DNA of 64,000 nucleotides from Deroplatys truncata. Taxonomy: Eukaryota; Arthropoda; Insecta; Mantodea; Mantidae. Numbering within the stretch: the first letter of the stretch is position 1; the number at the start of each line of letters is the position of its first letter. Below, piece after piece: positions 7,213 through 43,954 of the stretch. The position numbers and the translations under genes are program-made. The stretch covers positions 58,512,364-58,576,363 of the forward strand of contig CM060980.1 of NCBI GenBank assembly GCA_030765065.1, in the 5' to 3' direction. Below the pieces are notes generated by a model. It did no database searches, had not been told where the DNA came from, and saw only the letters and a list, made by a program, of their open reading frames with translations.

Positions 7213-7403
7213 AACTCAGTTTTGTTGTAACCCTTGTTGTGGTTTATTCCTTATATACGATGATTCCAGGTTTCCCGATTCTGAAGGTAATTTGCCCTTT
7301 TGTGCTACTGTCGGCTCTGAGTAGGCTTACTCAACGTTGTAGTGTCGTCGTGTAGTGAACTGCTCATCAATGTTACCTCCTTTGAAGGTCGTAGAGCCTC
7401 TTT

Positions 7404-8060
7404 TTACTTTCTCTACTACGTATAGTAAGTAGGGGAAGTATTGTGTTCCACCCAAAAATTCGATAGCGAGATTTTACCGGAAATATATGTTTTGAGGCCC
7501 CTGAATCCAAAAAAAGCATTTTTGGAAACATGTCCGTGTGTGTGTGTCTGTGAACAGCATAACTCAGAAACGAACAGTCAGATAAACACCAAAGTTGGTA
7601 TTTAGCTTCAGTATCTTCCAGAGATGCGACACGAAAGTTTTCAAGAAAATCCCCCCACCCCAGATTACCGTTTACATGGAACATTTTTCGAAAATTTTAA
7701 TTTTCCCAAAAATGGCTATAACGATTTTGATTAAAATATCATATGTTGAAGATATTTTCATGACAAATGAAATGCATATCTCGAATTTTCTCGGAATGTC
7801 TCCAACTGTATTCTTCATTGTGAACGATTTTTGCATAACTGGTAAACCATAAGAGATAGATAAAATTTTACTACACAAAAAATGTAGATCGCGTTAAAAT
7901 ACACAATTTATGTCATATACATTTTTGTTGTTGTTGAGTGAACGATTTTCGAGATATTGCTTGTTATTCCCTTAAATTTTCCAATACTTATACTTTTTCT
8001 CAAATTCGTTATTCATTTTTTTTGTCCTGGTAATGCAAAGAGAATGGAATACTTGACTTG
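7404..8060 (+). repeat. Rep-A dispersed repeat, copy 1 (3' truncated)
   Basis: The head is typical of the family: TACTTTCTCTACTACGTATA, then 'cacccaaaaattcgata', a T/G-rich microsatellite point near 7535, 'gaacagcataactcagaaac', 'ccccaccccagatta', and the middle 'gtagatcgcgttaaaatacaca'. The copy stops before the terminal AGTAGAGAAAG and runs into an LTR-B fragment. The reverse strand holds a 103-residue frame (7373-7684) also open in other Rep-A copies. Element class is unknown. Confidence 0.85.
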
Positions 8061-12440: not shown

Positions 12441-13112
12441 AATATGTTATTGTGAAAAAACTTTCTGGTGTGCTACATTCATATGGATTTCTCAACCCAT
12501 AATCATTTATTTTTATATAGTTCCTACAACTATTCTTACGAAAGCTTATTGTACTTCATGTTAATCGAGATAACACTTTGCAGAAATATGTTCATTACAC
12601 ATTTCGTTGTATGTTCAAGGGAGATTGAGGAAACCGAATCTATAGGCAGATGTTTAAATGTAAGTCACTATATACTGACCTTAAAGTTCAATATTTCCAT
12701 AACACCGCGTGATACAACCGAACAGCGACGGCATTTAAAAAACGACTTACTATTAAAAAATACAAACATATAATAACTAATATTTTGCCAATGGATAATG
12801 CCACAAAACGTTATCCGAAATAGGGTTTTCTTTGGCTTTTGTGTATATCTTAAGTTTAACAGTTATACAAATTATTTAAAATTCCTTCCGAATGAAGTAC
12901 TTCACAATATATTCCCAGAAAGTTCAAGTTATACATTTTATTTGTCATTTAAATATCTTAAATATATGATATTTTATCCAAACTGGTATGTTAACTAAAA
13001 AAACATGTTTTCAGAAAAGCATGTATATGTAGTTTTGGGGTGGGGGTTTCTCTTGAAAATCTTCGTATCGCATCTTTGGAAGATATTGAGTTTAAGTACC
13101 AAATTTGGTACT
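12441..13112 (-). repeat. Rep-A copy 2, left part, split by the palindrome
   Basis: It reads as Rep-A in reverse: tail (shore of 'catgttaatcgagata'), middle, then 'tttggggtgggggtttctcttgaaaatcttcgta' and 'accaaatttggtact'. At that point the 17.7-kb palindrome interrupts it, and the copy resumes at 30851. The final six bases GGTACT are duplicated on the far side. The copy is more diverged than the Rep-A pieces inside the arms, so it is an older resident. Confidence 0.85.
13107..13112. repeat. Left 6-bp target-site duplication GGTACT
   Basis: The bases immediately before the palindrome's AGTAGTATTAG terminus are repeated directly after its CTAATACTACT terminus at 30851-30856. Collapsing the two restores a continuous Rep-A sequence. 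Confidence 0.9.
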
Positions 13113-13122
13113 AGTAGTATTA

Positions 13123-13271
13123 GTCCCGGATGAGCCAATTGTTTTAACGATAATCCTGCCGCTAGGGGCGCTAGTGTCGCTAGTGTCGCTGCGTGCGACG
13201 GCGGCGGCGGTAAGTTTGAAAAGCGCCCTGAGCGTTAGGATTATCGTTAAATCGGTTGGCTCATCCGGGAC
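13123..13271. repeat. Left terminal hairpin (149 bp)
   Basis: GTCCCGGATGAGCCAA at the start is mirrored by TTGGCTCATCCGGGAC at the end, and the inner parts pair imperfectly through 'acgataatcct' and 'gcgccct/aggggcgc'. The apex holds a tandem GCTAGTGTC and a CGG run. It could fold into a long stem on each single strand, only 10 bp from the element tip. Confidence 0.9.
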
Positions 13272-13292
13272 GAGTTGAAAGAATTGAGGAAG

Positions 13293-13314
13293 TGACGTGG
13301 AGTGTTTTGATTGG
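13293..13314 (-). promoter_or_regulatory. TGACGT-n11-ATTGG module 1, left arm
   Basis: TGACGT (CRE/ATF-like) and ATTGG (reverse CCAAT, NF-Y-like) sit in a fixed 22-bp frame. The same spacing recurs in modules 2-5. Read outward this is the minus strand. Confidence 0.55.
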
Positions 13315-13471
13315 TTCGTTAATTTGGGGTGGGAGATGGAGGAAGGGAGATGGAGGAGTATGGAGGTCGCGTGATGGAGAGGAGCTGGGTGGCGAGGTGT
13401 TGTCTGTGCGGAGGTCGGTACTGAAAGAGGGGTAAAGATGGGGAGCGAGGGATAAAAAGTGTAAAGGAAAG

Positions 13472-13493
13472 TGACGTGTGAAGTTGTGATTGG
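13472..13493 (-). promoter_or_regulatory. TGACGT-n11-ATTGG module 2, left arm
   Basis: Same 22-bp spacing. It is preceded on the plus strand by GAGGGATAAAAAG, and several further ATTGG sites follow within 100 bp (near 13514, 13545 and 13570). Confidence 0.55.
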
Positions 13494-14543
13494 TGGGAGT
13501 AAGAAGTGATTTTATTGGTGGAAAGGAGCAAATGAGAGTTGTTGATTGGTAAGAATAAGAGGGATTATGATTGGTGGAAAGAAAAAGGTGTGGGAGTGGG
13601 GTATGTTGGAGGTGATGGGAAAGGTGAGTTTTGCTAGCAGCAAGATTTGCAAAAGCCTGTCTTGAACTGATCAGCAATTTTTGAACGTCGGATGGTAGTT
13701 TTCTTGAGTGGATAGAGAGATGGGGGCGATATGAGATGCGGTGGCGAAAATGGGGACTAGACAAGGTTGTTGAGACAAGAGGTTTAAGGACGAGGAAATT
13801 TGGAGGTTAGTGGTGAACACGGCGGTCGCAAGAGGTGGGGGTAAGGAGATGCAGTGGTGAGAATGGGAACTAAAAGAAGATGGGGGTAGCAAGAGTTTTA
13901 GAAGAGTAGATTTTGAGGTTAAAATAGTGGGAACTAAAAATGGCGGAGGGTCTACGACAAGGAGATGCGGTGAGAACTAAACAAGATGGCGGTCGCAAGA
14001 GGAGGGTAAGGAGATTTGAGGTTACAGTACGAAAACACGAAAGGATATATTCCTACGCCAAGCAGGTCCGAAAAATAATTATGCGTGTGGTACTTACCTG
14101 TTACCGGTGTGGATGCGTCACCAAAAGCGCGGCACGCGAGGCGGAAAAATAAAAGCAAACTGTTTTTGAAAATGCTTAACCAGCTTTAAGATCAACCAAC
14201 ATCACTACGCACTGATATACCTAGGTTTTTAAAGCGGTACAGACACCCTTTGCAGAGGCGTAATTTAACTATACCAAAAACCTGGTACTGGACCATCGTG
14301 ATGGACGCTAGCGTACGTAGGAGCAGGGTTCTCAAGCCGGTCGAAAGCGGTCAAAAACGTGTACGACGTAGGTGTTCGCAGTAGCTGCTGTCGAGTCAAC
14401 CGTCGAGGTGTGAATAAACGAGATCTGTTCTCGCCGGCAATTTGGTTCGGAGATGTGAGCAGCGGCGAGGTGTTGTCTGTGCGGAGGTCGGGACTGAAAG
14501 AGGGAAAAGATGGGGAGCGAGGGATAAAAAGTGTAACAGAAAG

Positions 14544-14565
14544 TGACGTGTGAAGTTGTGATTGG
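14544..14565 (-). promoter_or_regulatory. TGACGT-n11-ATTGG module 3, left arm
   Basis: Copy of module 2 in the second 1.06-kb repeat, again preceded by GAGGGATAAAAAG and followed by three ATTGG sites. Confidence 0.55.
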
Positions 14566-15666
14566 TGGGAATAAGAAGTGATTTTATTGGTGGAAAGGAG
14601 CAAATGAAAGTTGCTGATTGGTAAGAATAAGAGAGGTTATGATTGGTGGAAAGAAAAAGGAATGGGGTATGTTGGAGGTGATGGGAAAGGTAAGTTTTGC
14701 TAGCAACAAGATTTGCAAAAGCCTGTCGTGAACTGATCAGCAATTTTTGAACGTTGGATGGTAGTTTTCTTGAGTGGATAGAGAGATGGGGCGATATGAG
14801 ATGCGGTGGCGAAAATGGGAACTAAACAAGGTGGTTGAGACAAGAGGTTTAAGGACGAGGAAATTTGGAGGTTAGTGGTGAACATGGCGGTCGCAAGAGG
14901 TGGGGGTAAGGAGATGCGGTGGTGAGAATGGGAACTAAAAGAAGATGGCGGTAGCAAGAGGTTAGAAGAGTAGATTTTGAGGTTAAAATAGCGGGAACTA
15001 AAAATGGCGGAGGGTTTGCGACAAGGAGATGCGGTGAGAACTAAACAAGATGGCGGACGCAAGAGGAGGGTAAGGAGGTTTGAGGTTACAGTACCAAAAC
15101 ACGAAAGGATATATTCCTACGCCAAGCAGGTCCGAAAAATAATTATGCGTGTGTTACTTACCTGTTACCGGTGTGGATGCGTCACCAAAAGCGCGGCACG
15201 CGAGGCGGAAAAATAAAAGCAAACTGTTTTTGAAAATGCTTAACCAGCTTTAAGATCAACCAACATCACTACGCACTGATATACCTAGGTTTTTAAAGCG
15301 GTACAGACACCCTTTGCAGAGGCGTAATTTAACTATACCAAAACCTGGTACTGGACCATCGTGATGGTCGCTAGCGTACGTAGGAGCAGGGTTCTCAAGC
15401 CGGTCGAAAGCGGTCAAAAACGTGTACGACGTAGGTGTTGGCAGTAGCTGCTGCCGAGGCAACCGTCGAGGTGCGAATGAACGAGATCTGTTCTTGCAGG
15501 CAATCTGGTTGAGAGATGAGAGGCGCGGTGGTAAAAATGTGAACTAAATAAGATGGCGGAGGCACGAAGTTGAGGTTAAGGAGCGGCGAGGTGTTGACTG
15601 TGCGGCGGTTGGGGTCTGAAAGAGGGGGAAAGATGGCGAACGAGGGATAAAAAGTATAACAGAAAG

Positions 15667-15688
15667 TGACGTGTGAAGTTGTGATTGG
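15667..15688 (-). promoter_or_regulatory. TGACGT-n11-ATTGG module 4, left arm
   Basis: Copy in the third, partial repeat, again with GAGGGATAAAAAG just upstream on the plus strand and ATTGG sites after it. Confidence 0.55.
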
Positions 15689-15892
15689 TGGGAATAAGAA
15701 GTGATGTTATTGGTGGAAAGGAACAAATGAAAGTTGCTGATTGGCGAGAATAAGAGAGATTATGATTGGTGGAAAGAAAAAAAGGTGTGGGAGTGGGGTA
15801 TGTTGGAGGTGATGGAAAAGGCAAGTTTTGCTACCAACAACATTTGCAAAAGCCTATCCAGAACTCATCAGCAATTTTAAATAACTAGTGTT

Positions 15893-16640
15893 TCGGGGGT
15901 TTTCTCTGGTTGGTAGACGAATGCAAGCTGTTTCTACCATACTTATATTATTCGTCTTTTTCCTTTTTTTTTTTTAAAATGACTAGTTTTTTTTTTTTTT
16001 TTTTTTTTTTGGGAGTTTTCTGCGGATGGTAAACAAATGCAAGCTCTTTCTGCTTTTTCATAGGTTTTCCCTGGTTGGTAGGCGTTTTCTGTACTGGTTG
16101 ACGAAGGCGTTTCTAATTTTGGAGGTTTTCTCAGGTTTTTAGCGGTTGTCCCTGCCCGGTAGGCAAATGATGAAGTTTTACCTTGTCGGCGCACGGATAC
16201 TAGGCACGTACTGGCGCGCACACACACACACACACACACACAGAGAGACAGACAGACACACAGACAGGCACACACACACGGACATGTTTCCAAAAATGCT
16301 TTTTTTTTTTTTTTTTTTTTTTTTTTGATTCAGGAGGTCTCAAAACGTGTATTTCCGGTGAAATTTCGGTATCGAATTTTTGGGCGGAATGCAATACTTC
16401 CCCTACTTACTATACGTAGTAGAGAAAGTAAAAAAGTATTGAAAAATTTAAGGAAATAACAAGCAATATCTCAAAAGTGTACTATCTTGTTTTCAAGGGT
16501 TTTCCAGATCGGTAAGCGTTAGAATACTCTTAGAGCTTTTTTCAGGTTTTTTAGCGGTTGTCCCTGGCCGGTAGGCAATTGATAAAGTTTTTCTATAACG
16601 ACGTCGTTTTGGCTTGTGGCGCACGGTTCCTAGGCACGTA
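15893..16640. repeat. SINE-C-like body motifs and microsatellites, left arm
   Basis: At least five degenerate copies of a 'gttttc-ctgg-t-ggtag-cgaatgc' motif occur, near 15899, 16017, 16067, 16125 and 16498. They resemble the body segment of the SINE-C copies elsewhere in the window. They alternate with T runs (15987-16011, 16300-16326) and a CA/GACA microsatellite (16218-16280). The blocks before each microsatellite (about 16141-16217 and 16545-16640) are copies of each other. Confidence 0.6.
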
Positions 16641-16646
16641 CTCGCG

Positions 16647-16695
<49 letters not shown>

Positions 16696-19120
16696 ATAGT
16701 AGCGTATAAAAAAAACTGATTTGTTACACTCACATAACTTTCTCTACTCTTGTACAATCTAATTGGTAGCTTTTAAGCGATAGTCAAATATTTTAACGCT
16801 GGTTGCTATGTGGCGAATTCCATTCTGTTTGCATGTTCAGGACATAAAAAAAATGAATAAACGAATTTGAGAAAAAGTATAAGTATTGGAAAATTTAAGG
16901 AAATAACAAGCAATATCTCGAAAACGGTTCACTCAACAAAAGAAACGTATATGACATAAGTTGTGTATTTTAACGCGATCTACATTTTTTGTGTAGTAAA
17001 ATTTTGTCTATCTCTTATGGTTTACCAGTTATGCAAAAAAGTCGTTCACAATGAAGAATATTTTTGGAGACATTCCCAGAAAATTCGAGATATACATTTT
17101 ATTTGACATGACAATATCTTAAACATATGATGTTTTAATCAAAATCGTTAGAGCCGTTTTTGAGAAAATTAAAATTTTCGAAAAATGTTCCATGTAAAGG
17201 GTAGTCTGGGGTGGGGGGATTTTCTTGAAAACCTTCGTGTCGCATCTCTGGAAGATACTGAACCTAAATACCAAGTTTGGTGTTTATCCGACTGTTCGTT
17301 TTTGAGTTATGCTGTTCACAGACACACAGACACACAGACAGACACACACACGGACATGTTTCCAAAAATGCTTTTTTTTTTTTGGATTCAGAGATTCTCA
17401 AAACATGTATTTCCAGTGAAATCTCGGTAACGAATTTTTGGGTGGAATGCAATACTTCCCCTACTTACTATACGTAGTAGAGAAAGTAAAAATGAATAAC
17501 GCATTTGAGAAAAAGTATAAATATTGGAAAATTTAAAGGAAATAACAAGCAATATCTCGAAAAACGGTTCACTCAACAAAATAAATGTATATGGCATAAG
17601 TTGTGTATTTTAACGCGATCTACATTTTTTGTGTAGCAAACTTTTGTCTATCTCTTACGGTTTATCAGTTATGAAAAAGTCGTTCACAATGAAGAATTCT
17701 TTTGGAGACATTCCCAGAAAATTCGAGATATACATTTCATTTCTCTCGACATTATCTTAAATATATGATATTTTCATCAAAATCGTTAGAGCCATTTTTT
17801 AATACAAAGAGAACGGGATTTCACAAGTGAAACAGTACTGTGATAACGATACCACTGAAACAAAAAAAAAAATCTGATGTGTAACACTCACATGACTTTC
17901 TCAACTCTTGTACAAAGTATTTTTACAAACGCTTATTCCCCATCTAGTTCATGTTAATCGAGATAAACATTTGCAAAATCTATTTTATTGCTAATTTTCT
18001 TGTATAAAAAAAAAAAAAAATCTGATGTGTAACACTCACATGACGTTCTCTACTCTTGTACAAAGTATTTTTACAAACGCTTATGCTCCATCTAGTTCAT
18101 GTTAATCGAGATAAACATTTGCAAACTCTATTTTATTGCTAATTTTCTTGTAGATGTAGGGGAAAATATATTTACAAGGGGAATATAGAAAAACAGTAGC
18201 CTTTAAGCACATACATATCTCTTAATAGCTGGTTGCTATGTGCAACACCATTCTTTTTGCCACAGATTAATACTGTTTGCATATCAAAGACAAAAAAAAA
18301 ATGAATAACGAAGTCGCATTTGAGAAAATAAATATTGGAAAATTAACAAACAATATCTCGAAAACGGTTCACTCAACAACAAAAATGTATATTACATAAG
18401 ATGTGTATTTTAACGCGATCTACATTTTTTGTGTAGTAAAATTTTGTCTATCTCTTACGGTTTTTCAGTTATGAAAAAGACGTTCACAATGAAGAATACT
18501 TTTGGAGACATTCCCAGAAAATTCGAGATATACATTTCATTTCTCACGACATTATATTAAACATACGATATTTTTCATCAAAATCGTTAGAGCCATTTTT
18601 TTTAATACAAAGAGAACGGGATTTCACAAGTGAAACAGTACTGTGATAACGATACCAACAAAACTAATTATTATTCACCCACTGAAACACATAAAAAAAA
18701 TCTGATGTGTAACACTCACATGACTTTTCTCATCTCTTGTACAAAGTATTTTTACAAACGCTTATTCCCCATCTAGTTCATGTTAATCGAGATAAACATT
18801 TGCAAACTCTGTTTTATTGCTAATTTTGTTGTAGATGTAGGGAAAATATATTTACAAGGGGAATATAGAAAAACAGTAGCCTTTAAGCACATACATATCT
18901 CTTAATAGCTGGTTGCTATGTGCAGTACCATTCTTTTTGCCACAGATTAATACTCTTTGCATATCAAAGACAAAAAAAAAAAATGAATAACGAATTCCCA
19001 TTTGAGAAAATAACTATTGGAAAATTTAAGTAAATAACAAGCAATATCTCGAAAACGGTTCACTCAACAATAAAGATGTATATGACATAAGTTGTGTATT
19101 TTAACGCGATCTACATACTT
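16320..19120 (-). repeat. Nested and partly tandem Rep-A pieces, left arm
   Basis: It includes one nearly complete reverse Rep-A (about 16705-17487, from 'ttacactcacataactttctctact' to 'tacgtagtagagaaagta'), a head piece at 16327-16435, and middle and tail pieces repeated about every 0.6-0.7 kb up to 19120. The tail block 'ctgatgtgtaacactcacatgac' occurs near 17875, 18022 and 18705. The 81-codon frame at 17185-17430 equals the reverse-strand frame of outside Rep-A copies. Confidence 0.85.
16641..16691. repeat. CG/CA dinucleotide microsatellite, left arm
   Basis: An alternating CG tract grades into a (CA)n tract. Such alternating purine-pyrimidine DNA is a classic potential Z-DNA former. The mirror tract is 27271-27318. 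Confidence 0.85.
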
Positions 19121-19580
19121 TCGTACTCACCTATAAGATATAGAGGGTAGAGGTCGTACGAACGTAGCACTTTGAGAATCTATATTCAACAGTTGGTGTT
19201 ACTCCTTAGAAAGGAAGTATCTGCTGATTTTTATTTAATTCTTTACATTTTACATAACACGTATGCACTGGCACAACACAAAAGCACTACACACAATACT
19301 CAGTTTTAATATTTGCACTAATAACATCAGGAATAACTGAAGTCTGCAAACAGTCATTTCCCATGTGCAGCCTTACGTACAGAAAACGTGTGTGGCTGAT
19401 CTATGTGTAAAAAGAGCCTGAGAGCGGATGTACGTCAGCGGTAAAATCTTTTAAATGCATTTTTATTGGCGATGGTAGAAATCGTGCAGTGGTGGATCGT
19501 GAAAATTCATATAAATGGATGTATCACCTCATAATAAGCCTCTATATACCAAGAATATTGAGTTTTTAAAAAGTCAGCAA
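19121..19580. other. Unclassified AT-rich segment between Rep-A cluster and satellite, left arm
   Basis: I see no repeat family or coding signal; the mirror is 24385-24841. It could be native sequence of the element. Confidence 0.5.
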
Positions 19581-21671
19581 CTGTACCTGTGTTTCTATAC
19601 GTGAACGTCAGATGGCAGCTTCGATACGTGTCCACGGAGACCTTAGTGCTAGGCAACTGTACCTCTGTTTCTATACGTGAACGGCAGATTGCAGCTTCGA
19701 TACGTGTCCACGGAGACCTTAGTGCTAGGCAACTGTACCTCTGTTTCTATACGTGAACGGCAGATTGCAGCTTCGATACGTGTCCACGGAGACCTTAGTG
19801 CTAGGCAACTGCACCTCTGTTTCTATACGTGAACGGCAGATTGCAGCTTCGATACGTGTCCACGGAGACCTTAGCGCTAGGCAACTGCACCTCTGTTTCT
19901 ATACGTGAACGGCAGATTGCAGCTTCGATACGTGTCCACGGAGACCTTAGTGCTAGGCAACTGTACCTCTGTTTCTATACGTGAACGGCAGATTGCAGCT
20001 TGGATACGTGTCCACGGAGACCTTAGTGCTAGGCAACTGTACCTCTGTTTCTATACGTGAACGGCAGATTGCAGCTTCGATACGTGTCCACGGAGACCTT
20101 AGTGCTAGGCAACTGCACCTCTGTTTCTATACGTGAACGGCAGATTGCAGCTTCGATACGTATCCACGGAGACCTTAGTGCTAGGCAACTGCACCTCTGT
20201 TTCTATACGTGAACGGCAGATTGCAGCTTCGATACGTGTCCACGGAGACCTTAGTGCTAGGCAACTGTACCTCTGTTTCTATACGTGAACGGCAGATTGC
20301 AGCTTCGATACGTGTCCACGGAGACCTTAGTGCTAGGCAACTGCACCTCTGTTTCTATACGTGAACGGCAGATTGCAGCTTCGATACGTGTCCACGGAGA
20401 CCTTAGCGCTAGGCAACTGCACCTCTGTTTCTATACGTGAACGGCAGATTGCAGCTTCGATACGTGTCCACGGAGACCTTAGTGCTAGGCAACTGTACCT
20501 CTGTTTCTATACGTGAACGGCAGATTGCAGCTTGGATACGTGTCCACGGAGACCTTAGTGCTAGGCAACTGTACCTCTGTTTCTATACGTGAACGGCAGA
20601 TTGCAGCTTCGATACGTGTCCACGGAGACCTTAGTGCTAGGCAACTGCACCTCTGTTTCTATACGTGAACGGCAGATTGCAGCTTCGATACGTATCCACG
20701 GAGACCTTAGTGCTAGGCAACTGCACCTCTGTTTCTATACGTGAACGGCAGATTGCAGCTTCAATACGTGTCCACGGAGACCTTAGTGCTAGGCAACTGT
20801 ACCTCTGTTTCTATACGTGAACGGGAGATTGCAGCTTCGATACGTGTCCACGGAGACCTTAGTGCTAGGCAACTGCACCTCTGTTTCTATACGTGAACGT
20901 CAGATTGCAGCTTCGATACGTGTCCACGGAGACCTTAGTGCTAGGCAACTGCACCTCTGTTTCTATACGTGAACGGCAGATTGCAGCTTCGATACGTATC
21001 CACGGGGACCTTAGTGCTAGGGAACTGCACCTCTGTTTGTATACGTGAACGGCAGATTGCAGCTTCAATACGTGTACACGGAGACCTTAGTGCTAGGCAG
21101 CTGTACCTCTGTTTCTATACGTGAACGGCAGATTGCAGCTTCGATACGTGTCCACGGAGATCTTAGTGCTAGGCAGCTATACCTGTTTCTATACGTCAAC
21201 GGCAGATTGCAGCTTCGATACGTGTTCACGGAGACCTTAGTGCTAGGCAACTGTACCTGTGTTTCTATACGTGTCCACGGAGACCTTAGTGCTAGACAAC
21301 TGTACCTCTGTTTCTATACGTGAACGGCAGATTGCAGCTTCAATACGTGTCCACGGAGACCTTAGTGCTAGTGCTAGGCAACTATACCTCTGTTTCTATA
21401 CGTGAACGGCAGATTGCAGGTTCGATACGTGTCCACGGAGATCTTAGTGCTAGGCAACTATACCTGTTTCTATACGTGAACGGCAGATTGCAGCTTCGAT
21501 ACGTGTCCACGGAGACCTTAGTGCTAGGCAACTGTACCTGTGTTTCTATACGTGAACGTCAGATGGCAGCTTCGATACGTGTCCACGGAGACCTTAGTGT
21601 TAGGCAACTGTACCTCTGTTTCTATACGTGAACGGCAGATTGCAGCTTCGATACGTGTCCACGGAGACCTT
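19581..21671 (+). repeat. 76-bp satellite array, left arm (about 27 units)
   Basis: The monomer is 76 bp, with landmarks 'ctgtacctctgtttctatac', 'gtgaacggcagattgcagct' and 'gatacgtgtccacggagacc'. Three sparse variants recur exactly 532 bp apart: TTAGCG (19871, 20403), CTTGGATAC (about 19999, 20531) and GTATCC (about 20160, 20692). This shows a 7-monomer higher-order unit present twice. One shortened unit near 21260 lacks 27 bp between two ATACGTG motifs. There are no unique spacers, so it is not a CRISPR array. Confidence 0.95.
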
Positions 21672-21877
21672 TCGCTTCAGGTGACAAAATAACACTAGGC
21701 ACTTGTGTGCCGTGGTGTAAGCCGCAATCACGGTATTGGTAGCGTGGATCTCCTTGGGGCTCTCCTCGGAGTTACCTCAACACCACGTACATGACCTGGT
21801 TCGTCACGGGTACGCAGGTCTGCACTACCACTTCCTCGGCGTTGAGCAGGCCCAGGAGGCGATCGTACCGGTACACC
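21660..21877 (-). pseudogene. PolB-like fragment, left arm (mirror copy)
   Basis: This is the minus-strand mirror of the fragment at 22621-22834 and carries the same frame break and stops. The plus-strand frame at 21736-21984 is its antisense shadow and lacks an ATG start. Confidence 0.5.
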
Positions 21878-21984
21878 AGCTAGCACGTGGACATGTTATC
21901 GCGCTGTGGTGTTGCGTGTGCGAGGTATGGAAACTCAAGGACGCAAAACATGCACGACCGAGGGTTAAAAAGCAGAACAAGTAG

Positions 21985-22006
21985 TGACGTGGAGCGTTGT
22001 GATTGG
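21985..22006 (-). promoter_or_regulatory. TGACGT-n11-ATTGG module 5, left arm
   Basis: It lies far from the 1.06-kb repeats but keeps the same 22-bp spacing and the GAGGGTTAAAAAG companion. On the minus strand it lies just upstream of the PolB-like fragment, so it may have been that gene's promoter. Confidence 0.55.
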
Positions 22007-22233
22007 TGTAAATAAGACGATCTCTGATAGGTGGACAAATTGAAATAACGTGATGTGATAGGCGAAAATAAAATCAAAGGTGATTGGATGAAAAATGACG
22101 AGAAGGAATTAGCGGTGAATTTGTGAACTAAGATGGCGAAGATTTTTTTTTTTTTTAAAAAAAGGATAATATAAGTACGGCAACTGTAACGGTTTACGGC
22201 AAACGCGCGCCGCGCAATGCGTCACGCCGGGCA

Positions 22234-22260
22234 TCTTGCTCAATATGATTTTTGTTTTAT
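22234..22260. other. 27-nt loop at the palindrome centre
   Basis: The only non-mirrored sequence between the arms. The adjoining stems are GC-rich (CGCGCGCCGCGC), which would stabilise a hairpin or cruciform. One arm has an additional G close to the loop. Confidence 0.9.
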
Positions 22261-22490
22261 TGCCCGGGCGTGACGCATTGCGCGGCGCGCGTTTGCCGTA
22301 AACCGTTACAGTTGCCGTACTTATATTATCCTTTTTTTAAAATAAAAAAAAAAATCTTCGCCATCTTAGTTCACAAATTCACCGCTAATTCCTTCTCGTC
22401 ATTTTTCATCCAATCACCTTTGATTTTATTTTCGCCTATCACATCACGTTATTTCAATTTGTCCACCTATCAGAGATCGTCTTATTTACA

Positions 22491-22512
22491 CCAATCACAA
22501 CGCTCCACGTCA
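22491..22512 (+). promoter_or_regulatory. TGACGT/CCAAT module 5, right arm
   Basis: Mirror of 21985-22006. It reads CCAATCACAACG...ACGTCA on the plus strand, about 110 bp upstream of the PolB-like fragment in the same orientation. Confidence 0.55.
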
Positions 22513-22620
22513 CTACTTGTTCTGCTTTTTAACCCTCGGTCGTGCATGTTTTGCGTCCTTGAGTTTCCATACCTCGCACACGCAACACCACAGCGCGATA
22601 ACATGTCCACGTGCTAGCTG

Positions 22621-22834
22621 GTGTACCGGTACGATCGCCTCCTGGGCCTGCTCAACGCCGAGGAAGTGGTAGTGCAGACCTGCGTACCCGTGACGAACCA
22701 GGTCATGTACGTGGTGTTGAGGTAACTCCGAGGAGAGCCCCAAGGAGATCCACGCTACCAATACCGTGATTGCGGCTTACACCACGGCACACAAGTGCCT
22801 AGTGTTATTTTGTCACCTGAAGCGAAAGGTCTCC
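22621..22834 (+). pseudogene. Protein-primed family-B DNA polymerase-like fragment, right arm
   Basis: Two adjacent GC-rich open stretches lie in frames offset by one base, 22621-22725 and 22724-22834. The first reads like hydrophobic core sequence (for example LLGLLNAEEVVV and NQVMYVVL). The second contains TNTVIAAYTTAH. An N-x-x-I-A-A-x-T-T-A segment preceded by short beta-rich stretches is what I associate with the region between palm motifs B and C of Maverick/Polinton-type PolB. Codons are strongly G/C-ending, unlike all flanking DNA. A stop precedes the first stretch, the second runs into the satellite, and the catalytic Asp motifs are absent, so it is non-functional. The call is by eye and could be wrong. 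Confidence 0.55.
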
Positions 22835-24384
22835 GTGGACACGTATCGAAGCTGCAATCTGCCGTTCACGTATAGAAACAGAGGTACAGTTGCCTAACAC
22901 TAAGGTCTCCGTGGACACGTATCGAAGCTGCCATCTGACGTTCACGTATAGAAACACAGGTACAGTTGCCTAGCACTAAGGTCTCCGTGGACACGTATCG
23001 AAGCTGCAATCTGCCGTTCACGTATAGAAACAGGTATAGTTGCCTAGCACTAAGATCTCCGTGGACACGTATCGAACCTGCAATCTGCCGTTCACGTATA
23101 GAAACAGAGGTATAGTTGCCTAGCACTAGCACTAAGGTCTCCGTGGACACGTATTGAAGCTGCAATCTGCCGTTCACGTATAGAAACAGAGGTACAGTTG
23201 TCTAGCACTAAGGTCTCCGTGGACACGTATAGAAACACAGGTACAGTTGCCTAGCACTAAGGTCTCCGTGAACACGTATCGAAGCTGCAATCTGCCGTTG
23301 ACGTATAGAAACAGGTATAGCTGCCTAGCACTAAGATCTCCGTGGACACGTATCGAAGCTGCAATCTGCCGTTCACGTATAGAAACAGAGGTACAGCTGC
23401 CTAGCACTAAGGTCTCCGTGTACACGTATTGAAGCTGCAATCTGCCGTTCACGTATACAAACAGAGGTGCAGTTCCCTAGCACTAAGGTCCCCGTGGATA
23501 CGTATCGAAGCTGCAATCTGCCGTTCACGTATAGAAACAGAGGTGCAGTTGCCTAGCACTAAGGTCTCCGTGGACACGTATCGAAGCTGCAATCTGACGT
23601 TCACGTATAGAAACAGAGGTGCAGTTGCCTAGCACTAAGGTCTCCGTGGACACGTATCGAAGCTGCAATCTCCCGTTCACGTATAGAAACAGAGGTACAG
23701 TTGCCTAGCACTAAGGTCTCCGTGGACACGTATTGAAGCTGCAATCTGCCGTTCACGTATAGAAACAGAGGTGCAGTTGCCTAGCACTAAGGTCTCCGTG
23801 GATACGTATCGAAGCTGCAATCTGCCGTTCACGTATAGAAACAGAGGTGCAGTTGCCTAGCACTAAGGTCTCCGTGGACACGTATCGAAGCTGCAATCTG
23901 CCGTTCACGTATAGAAACAGAGGTACAGTTGCCTAGCACTAAGGTCTCCGTGGACACGTATCCAAGCTGCAATCTGCCGTTCACGTATAGAAACAGAGGT
24001 ACAGTTGCCTAGCACTAAGGTCTCCGTGGACACGTATCGAAGCTGCAATCTGCCGTTCACGTATAGAAACAGAGGTGCAGTTGCCTAGCGCTAAGGTCTC
24101 CGTGGACACGTATCGAAGCTGCAATCTGCCGTTCACGTATAGAAACAGAGGTGCAGTTGCCTAGCACTAAGGTCTCCGTGGACACGTATCGAAGCTGCAA
24201 TCTGCCGTTCACGTATAGAAACAGAGGTACAGTTGCCTAGCACTAAGGTCTCCGTGGACACGTATCGAAGCTGCAATCTGCCGTTCACGTATAGAAACAG
24301 AGGTACAGTTGCCTAGCACTAAGGTCTCCGTGGACACGTATCGAAGCTGCCATCTGACGTTCACGTATAGAAACACAGGTACAG
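22826..24384 (-). repeat. 76-bp satellite array, right arm (about 20 units)
   Basis: Reverse complement of the left array but 532 bp shorter. The marker variants TATCCAAGC and CTAGCGCTAAG occur only once each here (near 23960 and 24088), against twice on the left. The shortened unit is also present (near 23225). Confidence 0.95.
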
Positions 24385-24841
24385 TTGCTGACTTTTTAAA
24401 AACTCAATATTCTTGGTATATAGAGGCTTATTATGAGGTGATACATCCATTTATATGAATTTTCACGATCCACCACTGCACGATTTCTACCATCGCCAAT
24501 AAAAATGCATTTAAAAGATTTTACCGCTGACGTACATCCGCTCTCAGGCTCTTTTTACACATAGATCAGCCACACACGTTTTCTGTACGTAAGGCTGCAC
24601 ATGGGAAATGACTGTTTGCAGACTTCAGTTATTCCTGATGTTATTAGTGCAAATATTAAAACTGAGTATTGTGTGTAGTGCTTTTGTGTTGTGCCAGTGC
24701 ATACGTGTTATGTAAAATGTAAAGAATTAAATAAAAATCAGCAGATACTTCCTTTCTAAGGAGTAACACCAACTGTTGAATATAGATTCTCAAAGTGCTA
24801 CGTTCGTACGACCTCTACCCTCTATATCTTATAGGTGAGTA
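24385..24841. other. Unclassified AT-rich segment, right arm
   Basis: Mirror of 19121-19580. It begins 'tgactttttaaaaactcaatattc' right after the satellite; no family recognised. Confidence 0.5.
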
Positions 24842-27266
24842 CGAAAGTATGTAGATCGCGTTAAAATACACAACTTATGTCATATACATCTTTATTGTTG
24901 AGTGAACCGTTTTCGAGATATTGCTTGTTATTTACTTAAATTTTCCAATAGTTATTTTCTCAAATGGGAATTCGTTATTCATTTTTTTTTTTTGTCTTTG
25001 ATATGCAAAGAGTATTAATCTGTGGCAAAAAGAATGGTACTGCACATAGCAACCAGCTATTAAGAGATATGTATGTGCTTAAAGGCTACTGTTTTTCTAT
25101 ATTCCCCTTGTAAATATATTTTCCCTACATCTACAACAAAATTAGCAATAAAACAGAGTTTGCAAATGTTTATCTCGATTAACATGAACTAGATGGGGAA
25201 TAAGCGTTTGTAAAAATACTTTGTACAAGAGATGAGAAAAGTCATGTGAGTGTTACACATCAGATTTTTTTTATGTGTTTCAGTGGGTGAATAATAATTA
25301 GTTTTGTTGGTATCGTTATCACAGTACTGTTTCACTTGTGAAATCCCGTTCTCTTTGTATTAAAAAAAATGGCTCTAACGATTTTGATGAAAAATATCGT
25401 ATGTTTAATATAATGTCGTGAGAAATGAAATGTATATCTCGAATTTTCTGGGAATGTCTCCAAAAGTATTCTTCATTGTGAACGTCTTTTTCATAACTGA
25501 AAAACCGTAAGAGATAGACAAAATTTTACTACACAAAAAATGTAGATCGCGTTAAAATACACATCTTATGTAATATACATTTTTGTTGTTGAGTGAACCG
25601 TTTTCGAGATATTGTTTGTTAATTTTCCAATATTTATTTTCTCAAATGCGACTTCGTTATTCATTTTTTTTTGTCTTTGATATGCAAACAGTATTAATCT
25701 GTGGCAAAAAGAATGGTGTTGCACATAGCAACCAGCTATTAAGAGATATGTATGTGCTTAAAGGCTACTGTTTTTCTATATTCCCCTTGTAAATATATTT
25801 TCCCCTACATCTACAAGAAAATTAGCAATAAAATAGAGTTTGCAAATGTTTATCTCGATTAACATGAACTAGATGGAGCATAAGCGTTTGTAAAAATACT
25901 TTGTACAAGAGTAGAGAACGTCATGTGAGTGTTACACATCAGATTTTTTTTTTTTTATACAAGAAAATTAGCAATAAAATAGATTTTGCAAATGTTTATC
26001 TCGATTAACATGAACTAGATGGGGAATAAGCGTTTGTAAAAATACTTTGTACAAGAGTTGAGAAAGTCATGTGAGTGTTACACATCAGATTTTTTTTTTT
26101 GTTTCAGTGGTATCGTTATCACAGTACTGTTTCACTTGTGAAATCCCGTTCTCTTTGTATTAAAAAATGGCTCTAACGATTTTGATGAAAATATCATATA
26201 TTTAAGATAATGTCGAGAGAAATGAAATGTATATCTCGAATTTTCTGGGAATGTCTCCAAAAGAATTCTTCATTGTGAACGACTTTTTCATAACTGATAA
26301 ACCGTAAGAGATAGACAAAAGTTTGCTACACAAAAAATGTAGATCGCGTTAAAATACACAACTTATGCCATATACATTTATTTTGTTGAGTGAACCGTTT
26401 TTCGAGATATTGCTTGTTATTTCCTTTAAATTTTCCAATATTTATACTTTTTCTCAAATGCGTTATTCATTTTTACTTTCTCTACTACGTATAGTAAGTA
26501 GGGGAAGTATTGCATTCCACCCAAAAATTCGTTACCGAGATTTCACTGGAAATACATGTTTTGAGAATCTCTGAATCCAAAAAAAAAAAAGCATTTTTGG
26601 AAACATGTCCGTGTGTGTGTCTGTCTGTGTGTCTGTGTGTCTGTGAACAGCATAACTCAAAAACGAACAGTCGGATAAACACCAAACTTGGTATTTAGGT
26701 TCAGTATCTTCCAGAGATGCGACACGAAGGTTTTCAAGAAAATCCCCCCACCCCAGACTACCCTTTACATGGAACATTTTTCGAAAATTTTAATTTTCTC
26801 AAAAACGGCTCTAACGATTTTGATTAAAACATCATATGTTTAAGATATTGTCATGTCAAATAAAATGTATATCTCGAATTTTCTGGGAATGTCTCCAAAA
26901 ATATTCTTCATTGTGAACGACTTTTTTGCATAACTGGTAAACCATAAGAGATAGACAAAATTTTACTACACAAAAAATGTAGATCGCGTTAAAATACACA
27001 ACTTATGTCATATACGTTTCTTTTGTTGAGTGAACCGTTTTCGAGATATTGCTTGTTATTTCCTTAAATTTTCCAATACTTATACTTTTTCTCAAATTCG
27101 TTTATTCATTTTTTTTATGTCCTGAACATGCAAACAGAATGGAATTCGCCACATAGCAACCAGCGTTAAAATATTTGACTATCGCTTAAAAGCTACCAAT
27201 TAGATTGTACAAGAGTAGAGAAAGTTATGTGAGTGTAACAAATCAGTTTTTTTTTTACGCTACTAT

Positions 27267-27313
<47 letters not shown>

Positions 27314-27632
27314 CGCGAGTACGTGCCTAGGAACCGTGCGCCACAAGCCAAAACGACGTCGTTATAGAAAAACTTTATCAATTGCCTACCGGCCAGGGAC
27401 AACCGCTAAAAAACCTGAAAAAAGCTCTAAGAGTATTCTAACGCTTACCGATCTGGAAAACCCTTGAAAACAAGATAGTACACTTTTGAGATATTGCTTG
27501 TTATTTCCTTAAATTTTTCAATACTTTTTTACTTTCTCTACTACGTATAGTAAGTAGGGGAAGTATTGCATTCCGCCCAAAAATTCGATACCGAGATTTC
27601 ACCGGAAATACACGTTTTGAGACCTCCTGAAT

Positions 27633-27642
<10 letters not shown>
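24842..27642 (+). repeat. Nested and partly tandem Rep-A pieces, right arm
   Basis: Mirror of 16320-19120. The Rep-A copies therefore predate, or were duplicated together with, formation of the palindrome. Confidence 0.85.
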
Positions 27643-27664
<22 letters not shown>

Positions 27665-28070
27665 CATTTTTGGAAACATGTCCGTGTGTGTGTGCCTGTC
27701 TGTGTGTCTGTCTGTCTCTCTGTGTGTGTGTGTGTGTGTGTGTGCGCGCCAGTACGTGCCTAGTATCCGTGCGCCGACAAGGTAAAACTTCATCATTTGC
27801 CTACCGGGCAGGGACAACCGCTAAAAACCTGAGAAAACCTCCAAAATTAGAAACGCCTTCGTCAACCAGTACAGAAAACGCCTACCAACCAGGGAAAACC
27901 TATGAAAAAGCAGAAAGAGCTTGAATTTGTTTACCATCCGCAGAAAACTCCCAAAAAAAAAAAAAAAAAAAAAAAACTAGTCATTTTAAAAAAAAAAAAG
28001 GAAAAAGACGAATAATATAAGTATGGTAGAAACAGCTTGCATTCGTCTACCAACCAGAGAAAACCCCCGA
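27271..28070. repeat. Microsatellites and SINE-C-like motifs, right arm
   Basis: Mirror of 15893-16691: a GT/GC tract at 27271-27318, a GT/CTGT tract near 27683-27745, A runs near 27635-27663 and 27953-27976, and the same degenerate SINE-C-like motifs. Confidence 0.8.
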
Positions 28071-28274
28071 AACACTAGTTATTTAAAATTGCTGATGAGT
28101 TCTGGATAGGCTTTTGCAAATGTTGTTGGTAGCAAAACTTGCCTTTTCCATCACCTCCAACATACCCCACTCCCACACCTTTTTTTCTTTCCACCAATCA
28201 TAATCTCTCTTATTCTCGCCAATCAGCAACTTTCATTTGTTCCTTTCCACCAATAACATCACTTCTTATTCCCA

Positions 28275-28296
28275 CCAATCACAACTTCACACGTCA
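28275..28296 (+). promoter_or_regulatory. TGACGT/CCAAT module 4, right arm
   Basis: Mirror of 15667-15688. On the plus strand it is followed by 'tttttatccctcg' and CGCCATCTT, a YY1-like core. Confidence 0.55.
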
Positions 28297-28798
28297 CTTT
28301 CTGTTATACTTTTTATCCCTCGTTCGCCATCTTTCCCCCTCTTTCAGACCCCAACCGCCGCACAGTCAACACCTCGCCGCTCCTTAACCTCAACTTCGTG
28401 CCTCCGCCATCTTATTTAGTTCACATTTTTACCACCGCGCCTCTCATCTCTCAACCAGATTGCCTGCAAGAACAGATCTCGTTCATTCGCACCTCGACGG
28501 TTGCCTCGGCAGCAGCTACTGCCAACACCTACGTCGTACACGTTTTTGACCGCTTTCGACCGGCTTGAGAACCCTGCTCCTACGTACGCTAGCGACCATC
28601 ACGATGGTCCAGTACCAGGTTTTGGTATAGTTAAATTACGCCTCTGCAAAGGGTGTCTGTACCGCTTTAAAAACCTAGGTATATCAGTGCGTAGTGATGT
28701 TGGTTGATCTTAAAGCTGGTTAAGCATTTTCAAAAACAGTTTGCTTTTATTTTTCCGCCTCGCGTGCCGCGCTTTTGGTGACGCATCCACACCGGTAA

Positions 28799-28807
28799 CA
28801 GGTAAGT
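28799..28807 (+). promoter_or_regulatory. Consensus 5' splice-site-like motif CAGGTAAGT (inner repeat)
   Basis: A perfect CAG|GTAAGT lies about 510 nt downstream of module 4 in the same outward orientation. The mirror lies on the minus strand of the left arm near 15156-15164. Whether it is used is unknown. Confidence 0.35.
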
Positions 28808-29397
28808 AACACACGCATAATTATTTTTCGGACCTGCTTGGCGTAGGAATATATCCTTTCGTGTTTTCGTACTGTAACCTCAAACCTCCTTACCCTCCTC
28901 TTGCGTCCGCCATCTTGTTTAGTTCTCACCGCATCTCCTTGTCGCAAACCCTCCGCCATTTTTAGTTCCCGCTATTTTAACCTCAAAATCTACTCTTCTA
29001 ACCTCTTGCTACCGCCATCTTCTTTTAGTTCCCATTCTCACCACCGCATCTCCTTACCCCCACCTCTTGCGACCGCCATGTTCACCACTAACCTCCAAAT
29101 TTCCTCGTCCTTAAACCTCTTGTCTCAACCACCTTGTTTAGTTCCCATTTTCGCCACCGCATCTCATATCGCCCCATCTCTCTATCCACTCAAGAAAACT
29201 ACCATCCAACGTTCAAAAATTGCTGATCAGTTCACGACAGGCTTTTGCAAATCTTGTTGCTAGCAAAACTTACCTTTCCCATCACCTCCAACATACCCCA
29301 TTCCTTTTTCTTTCCACCAATCATAACCTCTCTTATTCTTACCAATCAGCAACTTTCATTTGCTCCTTTCCACCAATAAAATCACTTCTTATTCCCA

Positions 29398-29419
29398 CCA
29401 ATCACAACTTCACACGTCA
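29398..29419 (+). promoter_or_regulatory. TGACGT/CCAAT module 3, right arm
   Basis: Mirror of 14544-14565, with three CCAAT boxes upstream on the plus strand and 'tttttatccctcg' downstream. Confidence 0.55.
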
Positions 29420-29862
29420 CTTTCTGTTACACTTTTTATCCCTCGCTCCCCATCTTTTCCCTCTTTCAGTCCCGACCTCCGCACAGACAACACCTCGCCG
29501 CTGCTCACATCTCCGAACCAAATTGCCGGCGAGAACAGATCTCGTTTATTCACACCTCGACGGTTGACTCGACAGCAGCTACTGCGAACACCTACGTCGT
29601 ACACGTTTTTGACCGCTTTCGACCGGCTTGAGAACCCTGCTCCTACGTACGCTAGCGTCCATCACGATGGTCCAGTACCAGGTTTTTGGTATAGTTAAAT
29701 TACGCCTCTGCAAAGGGTGTCTGTACCGCTTTAAAAACCTAGGTATATCAGTGCGTAGTGATGTTGGTTGATCTTAAAGCTGGTTAAGCATTTTCAAAAA
29801 CAGTTTGCTTTTATTTTTCCGCCTCGCGTGCCGCGCTTTTGGTGACGCATCCACACCGGTAA

Positions 29863-29871
29863 CAGGTAAGT
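29863..29871 (+). promoter_or_regulatory. Consensus 5' splice-site-like motif CAGGTAAGT (outer repeat)
   Basis: Second copy, in the next 1.06-kb repeat and at the equivalent distance from module 3. The mirror is near 14092-14100 on the minus strand. Confidence 0.35.
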
Positions 29872-30469
29872 ACCACACGCATAATTATTTTTCGGACCTG
29901 CTTGGCGTAGGAATATATCCTTTCGTGTTTTCGTACTGTAACCTCAAATCTCCTTACCCTCCTCTTGCGACCGCCATCTTGTTTAGTTCTCACCGCATCT
30001 CCTTGTCGTAGACCCTCCGCCATTTTTAGTTCCCACTATTTTAACCTCAAAATCTACTCTTCTAAAACTCTTGCTACCCCCATCTTCTTTTAGTTCCCAT
30101 TCTCACCACTGCATCTCCTTACCCCCACCTCTTGCGACCGCCGTGTTCACCACTAACCTCCAAATTTCCTCGTCCTTAAACCTCTTGTCTCAACAACCTT
30201 GTCTAGTCCCCATTTTCGCCACCGCATCTCATATCGCCCCCATCTCTCTATCCACTCAAGAAAACTACCATCCGACGTTCAAAAATTGCTGATCAGTTCA
30301 AGACAGGCTTTTGCAAATCTTGCTGCTAGCAAAACTCACCTTTCCCATCACCTCCAACATACCCCACTCCCACACCTTTTTCTTTCCACCAATCATAATC
30401 CCTCTTATTCTTACCAATCAACAACTCTCATTTGCTCCTTTCCACCAATAAAATCACTTCTTACTCCCA

Positions 30470-30491
30470 CCAATCACAACTTCACACGTCA
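30470..30491 (+). promoter_or_regulatory. TGACGT/CCAAT module 2, right arm
   Basis: Mirror of 13472-13493, with the same upstream CCAAT cluster and downstream TA-rich motif. Confidence 0.55.
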
Positions 30492-30648
30492 CTTTCCTTT
30501 ACACTTTTTATCCCTCGCTCCCCATCTTTACCCCTCTTTCAGTACCGACCTCCGCACAGACAACACCTCGCCACCCAGCTCCTCTCCATCACGCGACCTC
30601 CATACTCCTCCATCTCCCTTCCTCCATCTCCCACCCCAAATTAACGAA

Positions 30649-30670
30649 CCAATCAAAACACTCCACGTCA
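30649..30670 (+). promoter_or_regulatory. TGACGT/CCAAT module 1, right arm
   Basis: Mirror of 13293-13314. It is the outermost module, about 20 bp inside the terminal hairpin. Confidence 0.55.
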
Positions 30671-30691
30671 CTTCCTCAATTCTTTCAACTC

Positions 30692-30840
30692 GTCCCGGAT
30701 GAGCCAACCGATTTAACGATAATCCTAACGCTCAGGGCGCTTTTCAAACTTACCGCCGCCGCCGTCGCACGCAGCGACACTAGCGACACTAGCGCCCCTA
30801 GCGGCAGGATTATCGTTAAAACAATTGGCTCATCCGGGAC
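30692..30840. repeat. Right terminal hairpin (149 bp)
   Basis: This is the exact mirror of 13123-13271, again starting GTCCCGGATGAGCC and ending GGCTCATCCGGGAC, 10 bp from the right tip. Confidence 0.9.
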
Positions 30841-30850
30841 TAATACTACT

Positions 30851-30856
30851 GGTACT
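30851..30856. repeat. Right 6-bp target-site duplication GGTACT
   Basis: Matches 13107-13112 exactly. The Rep-A sequence continues from here. Confidence 0.9.
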
Positions 30857-41180: not shown

Positions 41181-41404
41181 AATGAAGCTTTATAAAAGCT
41201 TTACCCTGTAAAGGTTAGTTTGGAGTGCATGAATTTCCAACGATGTATGCTCGTTTATATAAAACAACATAACAACATATTTAAAAAATATTTCCAAAAA
41301 CACAACGTTCATGGCTGCAATGATATCATGTGTTACTATATGTCACTTCTATAATGACAATTCCACAACGTTTTCAATATACACAACACAAACTTATGTA
41401 TAAA
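41181..41404. other. AT-rich stretch, no recognised feature
   Basis: Nothing supportable. Confidence 0.5.
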
Positions 41405-43945: not shown

Positions 43946-43954
43946 TTTATTTAT

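Follow-up and report, generated by a model that had tools for sequence, protein, structure and literature searches.

We found that the 17.7-kb near-perfect palindrome in the window (the 64,000-nucleotide stretch of the Deroplatys truncata genome analyzed here, positions 58,512,364 to 58,576,363 of contig CM060980.1, assembly GCA_030765065.1) is one copy of a high-copy mobile family with hundreds of related copies, and that the two arms of each copy evolve as one in the seven copies examined. Its identity as a nonautonomous satellite of the Maverick/Polinton family is well supported. The family is probably a recently active Maverick satellite that was founded by snap-back, is mobilized in trans, and has its arms equalized via a full-length hairpin, a scenario in which we infer the replication steps from sequence comparison.

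The palindrome is a discrete insertion

An earlier note on this DNA had described positions 13107-30856 as a palindrome whose arms mirror each other around a 27-nt loop. Self-alignment bears this out: the arms mirror each other from end to end around the loop (Table 1), and the span given then comprises the element proper (13113-30850, 17,738 bp) plus both copies of a GGTACT duplication, at which the mirror symmetry ends exactly. The arms (13113-22233 and 22261-30850) differ by four substitutions in ∼8.6 kb (15095/28868, 16039/27924, 16365/27595, and 16707/27255). These account for four of the ten mismatches in the arm-to-arm alignment, which also has four in the duplication and flank and two at the loop. 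Beyond these, the arms differ in homopolymer and (CA)n length, and the satellite accounts for a further 532 bp (76 + 456, equal to seven units of 76 bp). The left and right termini are identical over 20 nt; with up to three mismatches allowed, this terminus had a mean of 0.00 matches in 100 shuffles of the window, which excludes chance. The window contained no Rfam and no tRNA matches.

The claims that GGTACT flanks both ends and that excision restores a copy of the Rep-A repeat stand as well. When the flanks were joined with a single GGTACT, they aligned across the junction (BLAST) with seven further Rep-A copies from the window, of which one lies within the palindrome; a gap of 5 bases occurs in the restored empty site, ten bases past the duplication. 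None of ten flank frames scored above the Pfam cut-off. Matching 6-bp duplications were found in all eight copies read at both ends (the window copy, six others, and one with a truncated arm), supporting the notion of a discrete insertion that is almost all inverted repeat and is bounded by 6-bp target-site duplications (TSDs).

Table 1. Features of the palindrome and its borders (window coordinates)
Feature	Position	Strand	Evidence or remark
Left 6-bp target-site duplication GGTACT	13107..13112	.	
Left terminus AGTAGTATTAG, then ∼149-nt imperfect hairpin (13123-13271)	13113..13271	+	Fold, self-inverted BLAST; (AGT)2 motif as in an excerpt of PMC8097293
GC-skewed subterminal region with two direct 1.07-kb units (95% alike) and part of a third	13391..15878	+	
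Rep-A-type repeat array; captured host DNA	16246..19116	.	Best matches 85-89% to other window copies
76-bp satellite array, left arm	19577..21671	.	Seven units longer than right
Broken palm-region fragment of Maverick protein-primed DNA polymerase B	21675..21906	-	76% DNA identity to L064
Center-proximal left arm, ends in GC-rich stem	21907..22233	.	21889-22035 71% like subterminal unit
Asymmetric 27-nt loop at fold point	22234..22260	.	Closed by GGGCA/TGCCC
Right arm, mirror of left arm	22261..30850	.	
Polymerase fragment, mirror copy	22591..22822	+	
76-bp satellite array, right arm	22826..24388	.	
Subterminal units, mirror copy	28085..30572	-	Coordinates by reflection of 13391-15878
Right terminal hairpin and terminus CTAATACTACT	30692..30850	-	Coordinates by reflection
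Right 6-bp target-site duplication GGTACT	30851..30856	.	

The palindrome belongs to a high-copy family

A genome search for the termini had been suggested in the earlier note. In the same 4.29-Gb genome, a 24-nt end pattern with one position A or T gave 3,520 matches, the loop gave 590, and the adjoining stem gave 1,704 (≤2 mismatches), while each reversed control gave 0. All 20 terminal loci, including the window's own two, start with AGTAGTA[T/A]TAG, and all 12 center loci fetched, among them that of the window, are inverted around the center. Of the seven other facing end pairs on the scored list, six form palindromes from end to end, 15,062 to 18,092 bp long; the seventh (the C2 copy) has one truncated arm. 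The fold point and loop are common to all seven copies examined, apart from single bases. Loops are offset by up to 922 bp from the midpoint.

On 155 Mb of one chromosome (C1), we counted 46 facing end pairs. Palindrome markers are present in 25 of them (median, 17.7 kb) and a Maverick polymerase motif in 12 (median, 19.1 kb), and no pair has both. The 25 marked pairs were scored by short patterns, and one (C1:43027315) was read through. Nine pairs have neither marker, which we count against our main reading.

The two arms of each examined copy evolve as one

Per ∼6.2 kb, the arms differ at 1 to 11 positions within a copy, versus 17 to 54 between copies. In a tree of the arms, those of the same copy are sisters in 7 of 7 cases, strongly supported in five and weakly in two (75/72 and 79/79), the latter counting against the pattern. 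In these copies, an arm is thus most closely related to its own partner, which means that changes are passed from one to the other. Informative sites agree on both arms at 78 of 83 positions, compared with a mean of 9.8 and a maximum of 51 in a re-paired control (200 shuffles). A 454-bp indel is mirrored on both arms, and every one of the seven copies has changes, 1 to 20 each, that no other copy shares but that occur on both of its own arms. Among 38 differences between arms, 34 are private to a single arm and scattered along it; the other four, whose two states both occur elsewhere, count against this picture.

Arms of Y-chromosome palindromes are kept alike by gene conversion, and the same Maverick-derived family could have had its arms homogenized in this way within the chromosome after insertion, with no hairpin intermediate. 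The sister arms, the mirrored indel, and the copy-private changes on both arms fit this explanation, too. However, the 34 scattered private differences look like post-insertion mutations without conversion, and unmirrored differences remain, namely, the 532 bp of satellite, the truncated C2 arm, and the loops displaced from the midpoint. We therefore consider homogenization by conversion unlikely, though it is the strongest competitor of equalization in a hairpin.

Relationship to Maverick elements

Intact vertebrate Mavericks average 16,862 ± 1,678 bp in length and have (AGT)2//(ACT)2 ends and TSDs of 6 bp, according to an excerpt of PMC8097293. The AGTAGT...ACTACT ends and 6-bp duplications of the palindrome family are thus typical of Mavericks (Polintons), whose polymerase-bearing members are abundant in the same genome. 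Among the polymerase-bearing elements that share the palindrome's 24-nt ends, one, a 19,115-bp pair, was read in its middle 1 kb, which encodes protein-primed DNA polymerase B (pPolB; locus L064); since its TSD and any integrase would lie beyond this part, calling it autonomous is an assumption. The palindrome itself contains this gene as a broken 232-bp fragment only, which is why we file it as a satellite or derivative and not as an autonomous Maverick. DNA identity between the fragment and L064 is 76% over 232 bp, so that no exact progenitor was found. Two pieces of the fragment (21775-21879 and 21660-21776) match pPolB separately, and the two pieces agree with that of L064 at 63% and 59% of amino acids. 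Among the first-fetched polymerase loci (L024-L035), 0 of 12 had a DNA match to the palindrome arm, and C7, a Maverick whose two ends were read, has a different terminal inverted repeat (TIR) sequence behind its AGTAGTAT end; both results weigh against our main reading.

The longest stop-to-stop frame in the palindrome is 181 amino acids, versus a 363-amino-acid integrase frame in C7. Pfam hits of ten arm and center frames all fell below the curated cut-offs; the eight frames other than the polymerase pieces had no integrase match, and no capsid or packaging gene was matched among the scanned arm and center frames. One polymerase piece found nothing in PDB and phage searches (tblastn), and a 58-amino-acid frame had no candidate among 5.8 billion proteins. 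In viral contigs, two terminus patterns and a pattern made from a polymerase motif gave 0 hits, while a pattern back-translated from the window's polymerase piece gave three stretches with frames that are not polymerase-like.

The palindrome resembles Mavericks in its (AGT)2//(ACT)2 ends, 6-bp duplications, hairpin-bearing TIRs, length, and polymerase fragment, but it differs in that it has no intact gene, its inverted repeat is the whole element, it carries captured host repeats and satellite, and it presumably depends on helpers. A foldback-type cut-and-paste transposon (FB, Galileo, or Mutator-like) with very long inverted repeats would share the long repeats, internal tandem repeats, and tiny unique center, as far as foldback titles and abstract openings describe them. 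Duplications in Galileo and FB are 7 to 9 bp long, and the 6-bp duplications, (AGT)2 ends, termini common to polymerase-bearing elements, and Maverick polymerase fragment make this origin highly improbable. No foldback-type transposase was matched in the ten scanned frames (Pfam), although a nonautonomous copy would lack one anyway. Ginger, considered for its shared integrase type, was ruled out because its termini are TGTNR and its duplications 4 or 5 bp long (excerpt of PMC2836005).

Proposed origin and replication

Near-perfect palindromes are a known class of assembly or library artifact produced by fold-back chimeric reads. Such an origin is scarcely credible here: six other palindromes sit at separate places in the chromosomes, each flanked by a matching 6-bp duplication of its own, the loop has 590 matches, the symmetry ends precisely where the duplications begin, and the arms show differences in satellite length and private substitutions. 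Two head-to-head Maverick insertions, fused later by recombination at each locus, could also yield inverted arms, but the fold point and loop common to all seven copies, and the fact that each element as a whole is bounded by a single matching duplication, render this just as implausible. The shared fold point and single duplication pair argue for one founding event, followed by movement as a unit.

In the Maverick satellite scenario, the founder would be a single strand displaced from a Maverick already stripped of most genes and carrying acquired host DNA. This strand may have snapped back at the 5-nt match GGGCA/TGCCC and served as its own template, so that the resulting molecule had one end, and thus the origin, twice. 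From then on, autonomous Mavericks would have supplied the polymerase, terminal protein, and integrase for its replication and integration in trans. Each displaced strand could then self-anneal over its full length into a panhandle spanning the entire genome, which would restore the duplex origin at once and allow differences between the arms to be corrected or copied; the arms would then be equal at integration.

The palindrome is similar in length to the polymerase-bearing elements, which may be a consequence of packaging in Maverick particles, although the similarity is possibly a coincidence because the satellite array varies. A more speculative extension, which we regard as possible but on balance doubtful, is that the family is a germline-inherited satellite virus with ∼850 centers, a self-complementary defective Maverick genome that autonomous Mavericks replicate and package and whose arms stay identical because it passes through the full-length hairpin in each cycle; its transcripts, once folded, could also provide long double-stranded RNA that acts on the helper.

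Comparison with known systems

The palindrome has the hallmarks of a snap-back defective genome, i.e., one end duplicated around a short loop and a partial replication gene. SYREC, the symmetric recombinant of adenovirus type 12, is a palindromic protein-primed genome in which host DNA is flanked by two copies of the same viral end, but it is a cell-culture variant and not an inherited mobile family. Foldback elements (FB, Galileo, and Tetris) share very long inverted repeats and tandem repeats, in the parts of their literature covered, but have other duplication lengths and enzymes; at the level of titles and abstract openings, that literature describes no end-to-end palindromes of ∼18 kb. 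The snapback genomes of adeno-associated virus (AAV) are self-complementary, with one part of the virus duplicated around the turn, and the 5' kind, with a partial replication gene, replicates when Rep and helper functions are supplied (excerpt of PMC8235507). The palindrome shares this self-complementarity, the part duplicated around the turn, and the partial replication gene, but it involves another virus and replication chemistry and is an 18-kb chromosomal element at hundreds of copies. A palindromic miniature element (MITE) of Atlantic cod is likewise a nonautonomous palindromic family at several sites, yet it is derived from hAT instead of Maverick (excerpt of PMC12368964). No palindromic Maverick appears in the titles and abstract openings surveyed; excerpts of PMC4046053, PMC12368964, and PMC6431247 were also covered.

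Palindromes of ∼18 kb at hundreds of copies constitute a natural age series for palindrome decay. Long perfect palindromes are usually considered unstable in eukaryotic chromosomes. Maverick replication, in turn, is known mainly by inference from Maverick genes; in a palindromic satellite with coevolving arms, the sequences themselves agree with a single-stranded intermediate that anneals to itself, and they allow a direct test for it. The size of the palindrome, near that of its polymerase-bearing relatives, offers a handle on possible Maverick DNA packaging. Finally, the palindrome resembles a defective snap-back viral genome that has succeeded as a transposon, and it thereby connects the evolution of transposons with defective interfering genomes.

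The palindrome is a discrete insertion with nearly identical arms

The earlier note had described a near-perfect palindrome around a 27-nt loop, inserted as a discrete unit with 6-bp target-site duplications. Both points were confirmed: the arms (13113-22233 and 22261-30850) mirror each other, and a GGTACT copy (13107-13112 and 30851-30856) immediately adjoins each end of AGTAGTATTAG...CTAATACTACT. Excision was likewise found to restore the interrupted Rep-A host repeat: when the flanks are joined by one GGTACT, the alignment to seven other Rep-A copies in the window runs across the junction and shows a 5-base gap ten bases past the duplication. Alignment of the two arms with MAFFT gave 8,591 matched columns and ten mismatches, of which only four fall in the arms proper, the duplication and flank accounting for four and the loop for two. 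Beyond these, the arms of this copy differ in the lengths of homopolymers and (CA)n runs and by seven 76-bp satellite units. The longest stop-to-stop frame of the palindrome is 181 amino acids. Inspection by eye showed TGACGT and ATTGG (CCAAT) boxes repeated in one constant order within the subterminal units and next to the center, an arrangement resembling repeated promoters. Arrays of Rep-A-type repeats, direct as well as inverted, also occur beyond the palindrome (41400-43735, 7401-8050, and 48523-49084), and the translated frames at 43928-44304 and 55574-55858 resemble tRNA-derived SINE fragments, which may offer a hint of the host group.

Features of the window palindrome, further copies in the host genome, and a Maverick on contig C7
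Feature	Location	Length	Flanking duplication	Remarks
Terminal hairpin	13123-13271			Within arm
Subterminal unit		1.07 kb		Within arm; two copies and a partial third
Rep-A-type host repeat array				Within arm
76-bp satellite				Within arm
GC-rich block	Adjoins center			Within arm
TGACGT/ATTGG (CCAAT) box sites	13290-13310, 13480-13560, 14540-14620, 15670-15750, 21983-22010			By eye
End-to-end palindrome copy		18,092 bp	AGCACC	
End-to-end palindrome copy		18,073 bp	TGCGTC	
End-to-end palindrome copy		18,065 bp	GAGGAA	
End-to-end palindrome copy		18,055 bp	GAAGTG	
End-to-end palindrome copy		17,965 bp	GTCGTC	
End-to-end palindrome copy		15,062 bp	GGTACC	
Seventh facing pair	C2	About 10 kb	TTGCTT both sides	One arm shortened to about 2 kb
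Maverick (L062-L063)	C7:205668364-205686300	17,937 bp	GAGGTG both sides	Starts AGTAGTATATG

The palindrome belongs to a large copy family

A search for the terminus across the host genome (4,289,915,091 bases in 818 contigs, with the window at C6:58512364-58576363), as the earlier note had proposed, yielded 3,520 matches to the 24-nt end, one position of which was A or T. A 33-nt pattern over the loop gave 590 matches and the loop-adjoining stem 1,704 (up to two mismatches), and reversed-pattern controls for the end, loop, and stem gave 0 each. If there are two stems per center, the genome holds roughly 850 centers. With the terminal 164 bp as the query, 1,010 first-look candidates were obtained, of which 40 were scored, all of these 40 being 99 to 100% identical; this scored list contained seven facing end pairs besides the window, six of them end-to-end palindromes. 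With the 569 bp adjoining the center (835 first-look candidates, 40 scored), both orientations were found around the center in all 12 fetched loci, including the window and one with a single-arm deletion. Since these searches favor the most similar sequences, all the copies are biased toward young ones. At C1:191230331-191230550, two center stems of the same orientation lie 189 bp apart, perhaps a rearranged center.

The two arms of each copy evolve together

Arms from seven copies were compared along their first ∼6.2 kb: the two arms of one copy differ at 1, 3, 4, 4, 6, 9, and 11 sites, and arms from different copies at 17 to 54. IQ-TREE placed the two arms of every copy as sisters, with strong support in five copies and weak support in two. 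For 34 of the 38 within-copy differences, one state is absent from every other arm, while for the other four both states occur elsewhere. Informative sites agreed between the arms in every copy at 78 of 83 positions, against a mean of 9.8 and a maximum of 51 when right arms were randomly re-paired (200 shuffles). A 454-bp indel (arm alignment columns 4397-4851) splits the window copy and C10a, another palindrome copy, from the other five and is mirrored on the left and right arm of each copy. Despite their common indel, these two are not grouped in the tree, which points to recombination between lineages of the element or to a change that happened repeatedly. All seven copies share one loop and fold point, save single-base changes in two. 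The simplest account is a single founding of the palindrome, which was then copied as a palindrome, with the changes of one arm passed to the other during the life cycle; the main rival for this homogenization step is in-place gene conversion between the arms.

The family is derived from Mavericks

Intact vertebrate Mavericks (Polintons) are reported to end in (AGT)2//(ACT)2, to have 6-bp duplications, and to average 16,862 ± 1,678 bp in length (PMC8097293), and the palindrome has such Maverick-type ends and 6-bp duplications in common with them. A genome search for the polymerase domain DNA_pol_B_2 (G000) found 11,882 candidates, 76 of which were scored, with 152 matches reported; many of those listed lie in frames of ∼1,260 to 1,315 amino acids, most of those listed lack internal stops, and the Maverick load of the host is apparently large and recent. 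One of these polymerase-bearing elements, the C7 Maverick, has a ∼190-nt hairpin-forming inverted repeat, whose likeness to that of the palindrome stops after the first bases; its integrase frame contains rve and chromo domains. In these two Maverick families of unlike terminal sequence, long hairpin inverted repeats lie directly behind the AGTAGTAT end.

Two stop-free pieces near the palindrome center, searched separately, matched consecutive stretches of these polymerases in each of 12 loci, which are mostly near-copies of each other, with best scores of 33.9 and 39.7 bits versus 19.6 and 20.0 for the best of 100 shuffles. None of these 12 loci gave a DNA-level match to the arm. We conclude that the palindrome family is Maverick-derived.

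On C1, the first 100 ends listed (0 to 155 Mb) formed 46 facing pairs. The exact loop pattern occurs in 19 of them (in 11, at most 8 bp from the midpoint), and six further pairs have at least one exact stem and no exact loop; the median length of these 25 pairs is 17,726 bp, one (C1:43027315) having been read as a palindrome and the others assigned by markers. Another twelve pairs match the polymerase motif exactly, and their median length is 19,085 bp. No pair has both kinds of marker. Nine pairs carry neither; the stem and polymerase motif were listed as exact matches only, so that copies with mutated markers may sit among them. A third element class with the same ends is possible for these nine, which fall within 9,963 to 19,647 bp. 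Six polymerase motifs in this part of C1 lie outside such pairs, and the genome has 1,138 occurrences at up to two mismatches.

One polymerase-bearing pair of 19,115 bp (L064) has 65% GC in its middle kilobase, where a 333-amino-acid frame contains a polymerase palm (DNA_pol_B_2; E value of 0.0017, below the curated cutoff). Window positions 21675-21906 are 76% identical to this kilobase in DNA over 232 bp, and the two stop-free pieces of the window share 63% and 59% of residues with it. The palindrome is thus a defective relative of the family that includes L064.

A probable origin and life cycle

We infer that the palindrome was most likely founded when a displaced strand of a deleted Maverick containing host DNA snapped back on itself at GGGCA/TGCCC and served as its own template, which would make both ends the same replication origin. 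The panhandle of the palindrome would be the whole molecule, and immediate regeneration of a duplex origin could favor it over its helper. Full-length self-annealing would expose arm mismatches to correction, and a Maverick integrase would integrate the palindrome, giving 6-bp duplications. The proposed founding palindrome is similar in design to AAV snapback genomes, which are described as replicating with helper functions (PMC8235507), and in vitro duplication is reported for panhandle-bearing single strands of adenovirus (cited in PMC9863843).

No palindromic Maverick was found in the literature searched; a palindromic hAT-derived MITE is described from Atlantic cod (PMC12368964). Mavericks, nonautonomous transposons, and snap-back defective genomes are already known, and what is surprising is their combination, the scale, and the homogenization of the arms.
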